This document shows, piece by piece, positions 48,779-51,504 of a stretch of DNA of 64,000 nucleotides (its first letter is position 1; every line of letters begins with the position of its first letter). The notes beneath the pieces were generated by a model that saw nothing but the letters and a program-made list of their open reading frames with translations, did no database searches and had not been told where the DNA came from. This DNA comes from Janthinobacterium sp. J1-1 (GTDB lineage: Bacteria > Pseudomonadota > Gammaproteobacteria > Burkholderiales > Burkholderiaceae_D), in contig NZ_CP132339.1 in assembly GCF_030944405.1 (NCBI RefSeq), forward strand, positions 5,022,001 to 5,086,000. Reading direction: 5' to 3'. The translations under genes were made by a program, and so were the position numbers.

Positions 48779-49507
48779 ATGCCGCCATCGCTCCCGCCCG
48801 ATATCGAACGCCATCTGCAGTTGTTTGTCGCCGCCGCACAAAACGCCTTCGGTTCCGATCTCGCCGCCGTGGTGCTGTTCGGTTCGGCCGCCGACGGCCA
48901 GCTGCGCGCCACTTCCGATGTCAACCTGCTGCTCCTGCTCAAGCACTTCGCGCCTGCATCGGCCGATGCCCTGCGCGCGCCGCTGCGCATGGCGCATGCC
49001 GCCATCGACCTGCAGGTGATGTTCCTGCTCGAGAGCGAACTGGCCGACGCCGCCGACGCGTTTGCCGTCAAGTTCAGCGATATCGTCGCGCGTCACAGGG
49101 TGCTGCTGGGTAGCGATCCGTTCGCCAGCCTGCACACCAGCCGCGAGGCCGTGCTGCGGCGCTTGCGCCAGGTGCTGCTGAACCAGCAGCTGCGCATGCG
49201 CGAACGGTATCTACTGGTCAGCCTGCATGAAGAGCAACTGGCCGCCGCCATTGCCGATGCGGCCGGCCCCCTGCGCTCGGCCGCCGCCTCGCTGGCGCAG
49301 CTGGACGGCCACCCGCCGCTACCCGGCAAGCAGGCGCTCGAAGCATTTGTCGATACCTTGCAGGACCCGGCCCTGCACACCGCCTTGCAGACCATGTCGG
49401 CGGCACGGGAAACGGCGCGCCTGGCGCCGGGTCTGGCCCTGCCGGCGTTCACCGGCCTGATGACGATTACCGAACGTTTGCGCGACCATGCGGAGCAGCT
49501 GCGGTGA
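48779..49507 (+). CDS. Nucleotidyltransferase-like protein, altered catalytic motif
   Basis: A 242-residue protein whose N-terminal part has the nucleotidyltransferase (pol beta-type) motif VVLFGSAADGQLRATSDVNLLLLL. Classical enzymes have G-S-x8-10-D-x-D; here the position of the second catalytic Asp is Asn (SDVNL), so catalysis may be lost or changed. The C-terminal 130 residues are helical, HEPN- or DUF-like. It is the first gene of a compact operon: its stop overlaps the GTG of the TIGR04222-type gene (GTGA). Upstream in-frame GTG and TTG starts exist; the ATG is chosen for its AAAG-rich spacing. Its role in the downstream MNIO system is unknown. Confidence 0.65.
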   Translation: MPPSLPPDIERHLQLFVAAAQNAFGSDLAAVVLFGSAADGQLRATSDVNLLLLLKHFAPASADALRAPLRMAHAAIDLQVMFLLESELADAADAFAVKFSDIVARHRVLLGSDPFASLHTSREAVLRRLRQVLLNQQLRMRERYLLVSLHEEQLAAAIADAAGPLRSAAASLAQLDGHPPLPGKQALEAFVDTLQDPALHTALQTMSAARETARLAPGLALPAFTGLMTITERLRDHAEQLR

Positions 49508-50421
49508 CCGGCGCCAATCCCTTTTACTGGACCGGGCCATGGTTCCTGGCCGCCTACCTGGCCTTCGGCCTTGTCGTGTACTACGGCGTGCGCGAACTGC
49601 TGCTGCGCCAGGAGCTGCGCAATCCGCATGCGCAGCTGACCCTGGCCGACGACCCGTACCGCATCGCCTTTTTGCGCGGCGGCGCGCTCGAAGCGGTCAA
49701 AATCGCCGCCATCGTGCTGGTCGACCGCGGCCTGCTGCGCGCCGATGGGCCGCTGCTGGAAACCACCAGCGCCGACAGCCTGCGCTTTGCCGGCCATGAC
49801 ATCGAACGCGACGTGCTGCGGCTGTACCTGGGCCGTCAGGGCCACAGCAAGGAACTGGCGGTGCAGGCCGACGCTTTCCCGTCCTGCCAGGCTTATTTGC
49901 AATCGTTGACGCAGCAGGAGCTGCTGGTCGGCGCGCCGCTGCTGCGCCGACGCGAACGGGTCACCTGGGTCGCGCATTATGTGCTGCTGACGGTGGCCCT
50001 GGTCAAGGCCATCATCGCGGTCAGCACCGGGCATTACAACCTGCTGTTCCTGGCGATCATGACGGCCGTATTTCTGCTGAAGCTGCGCGGCCTGCGCACC
50101 CGCAACACCAGCTTCGCGGCGCAGCGGCTGCTGTCCGACCTGCGCATGCTGTTCAGCCGCCTGAACATGCGCTCGTCACGCCTGCAGGCCGGCAACGGCA
50201 GCGCGGACATGGCGCTGCTGGCCGCCATTTTCGGCATCGGCGCGCTGCCGCTGTCCGTCTATGCGTATGTGGCCGAGCTGTACCCGCTACCGCGCCAGAC
50301 GTACAGCGGCGATTCGTCGTCCGGCAGCTCGGGCGACTCTTCGTCCGGTGGTGACAGCGGGGGTTCGTCCTGCGGCAGCGGCTGCGGTGGTTGCGGCGGT
50401 GGTGGCGGCTGTGGCAGCTGA
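49504..50421 (+). CDS. TIGR04222-type membrane protein with Gly/Cys-rich tail
   Basis: A 305-residue membrane protein. Hydrophobic helices lie at about 10-28, 158-177, 182-196 and 238-260. The first soluble part (PYRIAFLRGGALEAVKIAAIVLVDRGLLR) is the segment I associate with the TIGR04222 domain. After the last helix comes a 40-residue low-complexity tail of Gly, Ser, Asp and Cys: repeats of SGDSSSG, then GSSCGSGCGGCGGGGGCGS with four cysteines. The tail resembles a substrate region for the adjacent DUF692/MNIO enzyme. It begins at a GTG inside the previous stop, and the MNIO gene starts inside its tail-coding DNA. Membrane location implies modification at the membrane or after insertion. Confidence 0.75.
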   Translation: MTGANPFYWTGPWFLAAYLAFGLVVYYGVRELLLRQELRNPHAQLTLADDPYRIAFLRGGALEAVKIAAIVLVDRGLLRADGPLLETTSADSLRFAGHDIERDVLRLYLGRQGHSKELAVQADAFPSCQAYLQSLTQQELLVGAPLLRRRERVTWVAHYVLLTVALVKAIIAVSTGHYNLLFLAIMTAVFLLKLRGLRTRNTSFAAQRLLSDLRMLFSRLNMRSSRLQAGNGSADMALLAAIFGIGALPLSVYAYVAELYPLPRQTYSGDSSSGSSGDSSSGGDSGGSSCGSGCGGCGGGGGCGS

Positions 50422-51250
50422 CCGCGTCGGGCTTGGCTGGCGCGGCGAACTGGCGGCGGGCATCCTGTCCAACCTGGCACAGATCGATGTGCTGGAAGTG
50501 ATCGCCGACGATTATTACCGCGCCTCGCGCGCCGGCATGGATGCCCTGTGCAGCCTGGCGCGCCAGGTGCCAGTCAGCCTGCATGGAGTCGGCATGGGAC
50601 TGGCGTCGACCATCCCGGCCGAGCCGCGCCGGCTGCACGCGATGGCGCGCCTGATGCAAACCGTGCAGGCAGAATCGTGGTCAGAACACCTGAGTTTCGT
50701 GCGCGCTGGCGGGATCGAGATCGGCCACCTGGCCGCGCCGCCGCGCACGCCAGCCAGCGCGACCGGCGCCGTGGCCAATATCGCGCTGGCCAGCCGCATC
50801 GTCGGCAGCGCGCCGCTGATGGAAAATATCGCCACCCTGGTCGAACCGCCGGCCAGCACCCTGGACGAAGCCGAATGGCTGGCGCAGATCATCGAGGGTG
50901 CGCAAGTGCCGCTGCTGCTCGACCTGCACAATCTGTATGCGAACGCCGTCAATGGCGGCCAGGACCCGCAAGCACTGCTGCTGCGCTTGCCGCTGGCCAC
51001 GGTGGGCGCCGTGCACCTCAGCGGCGGCCACTGGATAGACGAACCGGGCGGCACGGGCCGTCGCCTGCTGGACGACCATCTGCACGACGTGCCGGCCGAA
51101 GTGTTTGAGTTACTGACGCTGCTGGCGCGCCATGCACCGCAGCCGCTGACGGTCATCCTTGAGCGCGACGGCAATTATCCGTCGTTCGAGCACGTGCTTG
51201 AGCAGCTGGCACTGGCGCGCGCCGCCTTGCGCGCAGGCAGAGCGGCATGA
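50411..51250 (+). CDS. DUF692 family multinuclear non-heme iron oxygenase (MNIO)
   Basis: A 279-residue DUF692 enzyme, TIM-barrel fold. Known members (MbnB, TglH, bufferin enzymes) bind two or three iron ions and oxidise Cys-containing peptides. Visible motifs in order: VGLGWRGELAAGI near the start, VIADDYY, VSLHGVGMGLAS (metal His), ESWSEHLSFV (metal His), APLMENIATL (metal Glu), LLDLHNLYANAVNGG, VGAVHLSGGHW, DDHLHDVP and ILERDGNYPSF. Conserved ligands appear complete. The start is GTG at 50411 (or 50402), inside the Cys-rich codons of the preceding gene; ATG starts are absent nearby. The 85-residue gene overlaps its stop by 4 nt. Confidence 0.85.
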   Translation: MAADRVGLGWRGELAAGILSNLAQIDVLEVIADDYYRASRAGMDALCSLARQVPVSLHGVGMGLASTIPAEPRRLHAMARLMQTVQAESWSEHLSFVRAGGIEIGHLAAPPRTPASATGAVANIALASRIVGSAPLMENIATLVEPPASTLDEAEWLAQIIEGAQVPLLLDLHNLYANAVNGGQDPQALLLRLPLATVGAVHLSGGHWIDEPGGTGRRLLDDHLHDVPAEVFELLTLLARHAPQPLTVILERDGNYPSFEHVLEQLALARAALRAGRAA

Positions 51251-51504
51251 GTTCGCCGGCGCTGGAAGCCTACCTGGCGAAACTGTACACGGACGACGCG
51301 CTGCGCCAGGCGTTCCTGGACGCCCCGCAGACGCAGTCCGTGCTGCATGGTTTGTCGCCGCAGGAAGCCGAGGCGATGGCGGCGATCGACCGCATCGGGC
51401 TGCAGATGGCGGCCGCCAGTTTTCAGCACAAGCGCGCCGCGCATGGCGCACACGCCAAGCAACAGCAAGGCTGGTGGCGCCGGCTGCTGGAACGCTGGCG
51501 CTGA
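51247..51504 (+). CDS. Small helical partner protein of the MNIO operon
   Basis: An 85-residue, mostly alpha-helical protein starting ATGA-overlapped with the MNIO gene. The segment LEAYLAKLYTDDALRQAFLDAP plus GLSPQEAEAMAAIDRIGLQMAAASFQHKR resembles the short N-terminal modules seen next to DUF692 enzymes and a Nif11/LigA-like helical domain; this is a resemblance only. The C terminus is basic and aromatic (GWWRRLLERWR), possibly membrane-interacting. A plausible role is substrate recognition or enzyme partner, in place of the DUF2063-type partner found in bufferin operons. No homology can be proven here. Confidence 0.6.
   Translation: MSSPALEAYLAKLYTDDALRQAFLDAPQTQSVLHGLSPQEAEAMAAIDRIGLQMAAASFQHKRAAHGAHAKQQQGWWRRLLERWR

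Follow-up and report, generated by a model that had tools for sequence, protein, structure and literature searches.

A Janthinobacterium operon pairing an MNIO with a Gly/Ser/Cys-tailed TIGR04222 membrane protein, and the tail as a candidate target of possibly exchangeable maturases

Peptide-modifying enzymes are mostly viewed as makers of small released products. A four-gene operon of Janthinobacterium sp. J1-1 raises the question of what such an enzyme acts on when its gene is joined to that of an integral membrane protein. The operon lies at 48779-51504 on the forward strand of the window, which is the whole stretch of 64,000 nucleotides that was analysed (assembly GCF_030944405.1, contig NZ_CP132339.1, positions 5,022,001 to 5,086,000), and it is compact and single in the genome. 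ORF calls bear out the four genes overlapping by 4, 11, and 4 nt that the initial annotation described, the 11-nt overlap holding only if the MNIO starts at the GTG at 50411 (Table 1). The central proposal of that annotation, that the tail of the membrane protein is the MNIO substrate, was already published in 2025 for TIGR04222-MNIO clusters in general (PMC12452194, Antoine et al. 2025). The passages of that paper on these clusters count more than 3,500 TIGR04222 proteins, often paired with MNIOs, and describe tails that are predicted to be periplasmic and are likely substrates; the clusters are without a DUF2063 partner, PME-type 2 proteins are found in at least 10% of them, and many have no MNIO. 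Most of the family is assigned there to Actinomycetota. The core idea is therefore known; the new elements here are the comparisons that suggest exchangeable maturases and the character of the partner protein.

Table 1. Features of the operon region (window positions)
Feature	Position	Strand	Description	Basis
Palindrome TTGC-TATATT-GCAA	48723..48736	+	Upstream of the operon; possible promoter/operator	
NTase-like protein	48779..49507	+	242 aa	Weak Polbeta match, 22.1 bits (cut-off 26.9)
TIGR04222 membrane protein	49504..50421	+	305 aa; four predicted TM segments	NCBIfam, hydropathy, charge
Gly/Ser/Cys tail	50278..50418	+	Residues 259-305; candidate substrate	Composition
MNIO (DUF692)	50411..51250	+	279 aa	PF05114, 202.5 bits (cut-off 25)
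p85	51247..51504	+	85 aa; LigA-like domain (1-47) and one long helix (49-84)	

All 13 relatives obtained from one genome-contig scan, every one a Janthinobacterium, have the genes in the order NTase, TIGR04222, MNIO, p85, as do more distant genera, so that the gene-order conservation proposed as a check by the initial annotation was found both within the genus and beyond it. Codon position 3 is the most variable in all four genes in every comparison with 4 of the 13 loci. Judging from this pattern and from the order in 13/13 loci, conservation of the operon exceeds chance. Among 145 Oxalobacteraceae genomes, some of which are likely identical to some of the 13 relatives, TIGR04222 is matched in 12 and exceeds the cut-off in 11, and p85 occurs in exactly these 11. 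The NTase family (E<=1e-10) is likewise found in 11/145, namely 10 of the 11 operon genomes and G009, whose contig ends inside the NTase gene; the eleventh operon genome, G044, has a contig whose start lies just ahead of its TIGR04222 gene. Outside Janthinobacterium, identity over the aligned pieces is 27-35% for the membrane protein and 55-66% for the MNIO. Of the 12 Janthinobacterium loci aligned (the alignment left out L009 and L015), 11 have the upstream palindrome without any change and L016 lacks it. An exact match occurs once in the whole 6.95 Mb genome, and the palindrome may be an operator with a single target, lying over the -10 box.

The first gene, to which the initial annotation assigned no role, encodes an NTase-like protein that also weakly matches ANT families. 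In 13/13 aligned NTase-like proteins, SDVN stands in place of SDxD and aligns to SDID of 7uy4. The second catalytic Asp is thus lost, and with the catalytic D-x-D/E pair absent, the candidate role of active NTase was rejected; the protein is probably not an active nucleotidyltransferase. This bears on the reading of the operon as a defence or toxin-antitoxin module with the NTase-like protein as its active part. Weak NCBIfam matches to the MntA antitoxin and HalB models speak for such a module, but they fall far below cut-off, the catalytic Asp is missing in every aligned member, and Janthinobacterium has the operon as a regular part of its genomes, which together make this reading highly improbable. 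A dedicated accessory role would fit the NTase-like protein better.

The second gene encodes the TIGR04222 membrane protein (63.6 bits against a cut-off of 43, residues 19-249). Its last 47 residues contain 17 Gly, 14 Ser, and 4 Cys (C290, C294, C297, and C303, with codons at 50371, 50383, 50392, and 50410), as the initial annotation had noticed in describing a protein that ends in four Cys among Gly/Ser; C128 is the sole Cys outside the tail. The C294-G-G-C297 core is near-invariant, being kept in at least 90% of 20 aligned TIGR04222 proteins, and it is also present in genomes where no MNIO was found at all. Hydropathy, with TM limits set by hand, gives four membrane segments, and Lys/Arg are concentrated in the loops 32-152 (16 residues) and 194-235 (8 residues), with 0 at the N-terminus and 1 in the tail. 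By the positive-inside rule, the tail is predicted to lie outside the cytoplasm, which agrees with published models. A cytoplasmic enzyme would therefore have to modify the tail before export.

The third gene encodes the MNIO. Alignment with other MNIOs shows conservation of the HGV, EN, D-x-x-N, H, D-x-H, and E-x-D columns, whose residues we take to be metal ligands, and the metal-ligand motifs named in the initial annotation are among what is conserved. The enzyme scores 168.8 bits against the BufB equivalog NF050167 (cut-off 310); this score and the missing DUF2063 rule out a bufferin-type operon. Two further MNIOs, 30-31% identical to the operon MNIO, are encoded in the same genome at L119 (C1:4590500-4596500) and L120 (C1:6312500-6318500). 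One is preceded by a 100-aa Cys-containing ORF that is bufferin-like by eye, and the other by a 693-aa ORF.

In a plasmid collection, the top two MNIO matches among the 30 listed of 340 records came from Tsukamurella (38.7%) and Nonomuraea (36.9%), with Rhizobium (34.0%) and Streptomyces (34.5%) next. In the three actinobacterial records that were opened (H1, H2, and H4; two of them unannotated and read by translation), a profile-confirmed TIGR04222 gene adjoins the MNIO and a small gene follows the MNIO. A search of the plasmid collection with a TIGR04222 protein gave no match. The Tsukamurella and Nonomuraea TIGR04222 proteins have Cys-rich tail ends. The annotated Tsukamurella protein (L089:3034-4965) has two TIGR04222 stretches parted by an Arg-rich stretch, which looks like the first tail read out of frame. 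At the Streptomyces locus L091, an MNIO and partner are present and the TIGR04222 protein, encoded after the partner gene, has no Cys tail, which counts against the tail as substrate. In six Streptomyces-type proteins, the partner is fused to the MNIO. The name of the partner domain is SCO6045-like C-terminal domain, after SCO6045 of Streptomyces coelicolor. In the data on that gene in PMC4991794, SCO6045 is 3.0-fold up with peroxide in the wild type, and the hsr mutant is without any upregulated gene.

The fourth gene encodes p85, the small helical protein that the initial annotation proposed as the partner of the MNIO. Its predicted structure (AlphaFold2, mean pLDDT 88.4) matches the SonA / OphMA clasp domain in the structure alignment (VIA-align, rows 1-39), and the model resembles a LigA-like borosin docking domain followed by a long helix. 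By profile, p85 matches SonA only at E = 0.15 or worse. Pfam LigA is matched at E<=1 by 15 of 21 p85 relatives (best 5.3e-5), the p85 of the window giving no match. No DUF2063 signature was found for p85 at E<=1 or in the 11 families matched by the 21 relatives, and TglI and NGO1945 are not among the profile or structure matches listed. An alignment of 21 members marks D48, L52, K62, R63, and a Trp/Arg end. A D-x3-L-x9-KR segment is common to p85 and the actinobacterial partners and beats 200/200 column shuffles; the link between the two as a whole is weak (hhalign probability 6.4%). The position of the gene and the published idea support p85 as the partner that had been proposed, a role that would correspond to docking.

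A different role for p85 is that of the substrate itself: a RiPP precursor with residues 1-47 as a LigA-like leader and 48-85 as a non-Cys core, as SonA is for SonM, with the TIGR04222 protein as anchor or exporter. SonA, which p85 matches in fold, is a RiPP precursor, p85 weakly matches NHLP-type models below cut-off (Os1348 NHLP clan NF038399, 20.4 bits, domain cut-off 40), and MNIOs can act on non-Cys residues according to the passages on them in PMC12452194. Against this, residues 48-63 are among the most conserved, whereas the end varies and one relative stops at residue 67; the p85 of the window has no Cys; and the Streptomyces protein in the p85 position is fused to the enzyme. A precursor role for p85 is thus improbable, and the tail is retained as the preferred candidate.

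The dependence of the tail cysteines on an MNIO was surveyed in 33 distinct genomes with TIGR04222 above cut-off, combined from the Oxalobacteraceae, Burkholderiales, and Pseudomonadota samples. The locus contains an MNIO in 14 genomes, 8 of them Janthinobacterium-type and the other 6 not; 5 have a radical SAM enzyme there, 11 a WHxH-motif domain, and 3 no recognised enzyme (L085, L086, and L087, the contig of L086 ending 101 bases past the gene). Neither an MNIO nor this radical SAM enzyme is present at 14/33 loci, which counts against the proposed model. Two of the 14 MNIO genomes, both drafts, have a damaged MNIO gene next to a remaining p85 and TIGR04222: in L070 it is broken across two frames and in L072 it has an internal deletion, which may reflect either assembly error or decay. 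Cys occurs in the last 60 residues at 15 of the 19 loci without MNIO; of the other four, L085 and L087 have none, and L071 and L084 are cut by the contig end. A PF05114 search of 20 genomes found no MNIO anywhere in 8, and in 6 of these 8 the visible tail has Cys. On these sequences, cysteines in the tail are independent of the presence of an MNIO and are ruled out as proof of an MNIO substrate. The tail proposed by the initial annotation stands as the most likely substrate; its argument from the cysteines is not supported. A figure of 0.011 for Cys-less tails among partner-less loci was post hoc, came from 24 loci set by hand, and was given no weight. The WHxH domain, which is conserved and has an additional HH motif, is fused N-terminally or encoded just upstream in L064-L067, L071, and L076-L081. 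In the members that were scanned, it has no Pfam match above cut-off; it may act as a third maturase or have nothing to do with maturation.

A further reading is that the MNIO and p85 act on a target encoded elsewhere, the TIGR04222 protein serving only as a platform in the membrane whose low-complexity tail stays unmodified. Cys tails without an MNIO fit it, as does the Streptomyces locus L091, and in the part of PMC12452194 that treats these proteins, C-proximal Cys is missing in more than a quarter of them. On the other side are the tight translational coupling of the tail gene and the MNIO gene and the occurrence of two unrelated classes of peptide-modifying enzymes at the same protein. 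A target elsewhere is accordingly judged unlikely, with a weight that is not negligible.

The second enzyme class is a radical SAM/SPASM family. Its gene is directly 3' of the tail gene in L082 and L083; L069 (genome G225) contains an enzyme from this family that shares 42-43% identity with the two, and its gene converges on the tail gene, the two ends abutting. The nearest NCBIfam models for all three are SbtM and the ACGX-system enzyme, all below cut-off, and enzymes of this type presumably act at Cys-Gly motifs. At E<=1e-40, the family is found in 4 of 398 Pseudomonadota genomes, all among the 14 with TIGR04222 above cut-off; the chance of this 4/4 overlap is ~1e-6 with kinship ignored, but two of these genomes belong to one genus. 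The family is found in 1 of 349 Burkholderiales genomes (a sample sharing some genomes with the former), which is G225, one of 10 TIGR04222-positive genomes. As only a handful of candidates in each genome are scored by the search, a missing match is no absolute sign of absence. The PF05114 search found no MNIO in any of the five radical SAM genomes. In G581, the first codons of the radical SAM contig spell GCGGGGD and end in a stop directly ahead of the enzyme gene, which means that the tail gene was adjacent; in G619, the contig starts too close to the radical SAM gene to tell its neighbour. A PqqE-type radical SAM gene about 1.2 kb from the L085 gene exceeds the PqqE cut-off and was not counted. 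The apparent replacement of the MNIO by a radical SAM enzyme in some relatives points to the tail as the target.

G225 keeps the NTase gene and a Cys-tailed TIGR04222 gene; MNIO and p85 are absent at the locus, and PF05114 was found nowhere in its genome. In a tree of 31 TIGR04222 proteins, L069 falls inside the betaproteobacterial MNIO group, in a clade with L070 and L068 (support 0.98), the L068-L069 pairing itself having a support of only 0.41. Actinobacterial MNIO-linked proteins fall elsewhere in this tree, so the MNIO pairing is not limited to one clade. In ten-taxon trees, L068 and L069 are sisters with supports of 99 (NTase), 62 (TIGR04222), and 97 (both), and a tree with L069 outside was rejected (AU p = 0.027, with L072 as an outgroup chosen from the 31-protein tree). 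These results suggest, as the simplest account, that G225 underwent a maturase swap in which MNIO and p85 were lost and a radical SAM gene was gained. The pairing of this enzyme with TIGR04222 is not mentioned in the main-text passages of PMC12452194 and may be in its supplements.

On balance, the operon appears somewhat more apt to make a membrane protein with a modified tail, through MNIO catalysis and p85 docking, than to do anything else. The TIGR04222 protein would sit in the inner membrane, and the cytoplasmic MNIO would oxidise at least one tail Cys before the Gly/Ser/Cys tail crosses to the periplasm. p85 would act as a docking partner, a detached form of the LigA-like domain with which borosins dock peptide to enzyme, and its basic Trp-rich helix may contact the MNIO or the membrane. 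The product could be a thiooxazole as in bufferins, which is a guess by analogy. A broader reading is more tentative, at a little under an even chance: TIGR04222 proteins may serve as a platform, with a membrane-borne Gly/Cys tail on which unrelated maturases can stand in for one another, namely an MNIO with a detached LigA-like docking protein, a radical SAM/SPASM enzyme, and possibly the WHxH domain. If true, enzymes would here tailor an integral membrane protein that stays in place, and the exchange of one enzyme for another could be seen within a single clade. If two unrelated enzyme classes tailor the tail, the target can be tested by comparing both.

Several known systems share parts of this arrangement. 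The TIGR04222-MNIO clusters, as described in the passages on them in PMC12452194, have the same Gly/Ser/Cys-tailed membrane protein beside an MNIO and no DUF2063 partner, whereas the operon here adds an NTase-like gene dedicated to it and, as partner, a LigA-like protein of 85 residues, neither of which those passages name. Bufferin operons (BufA-BufB-BufC) also combine an MNIO with a partner acting on cysteines, but the bufferin precursors are small and secreted, and their partner is a DUF2063 protein; the MNIO of the operon here scores far below the BufB cut-off. Borosins (SonA-SonM and OphMA) share the small LigA-like helical domain, which in them docks the peptide to the enzyme. That domain is joined to the core or to the enzyme, a methyltransferase, whereas p85 is encoded on its own, and the enzyme next to it is an iron oxidase. 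For the radical SAM members, SbtM (TIGR04082) and ACGX (TIGR04340) are the nearest models, with scores below the equivalog cut-offs, and a membrane tail as their target is suggested only by gene position.
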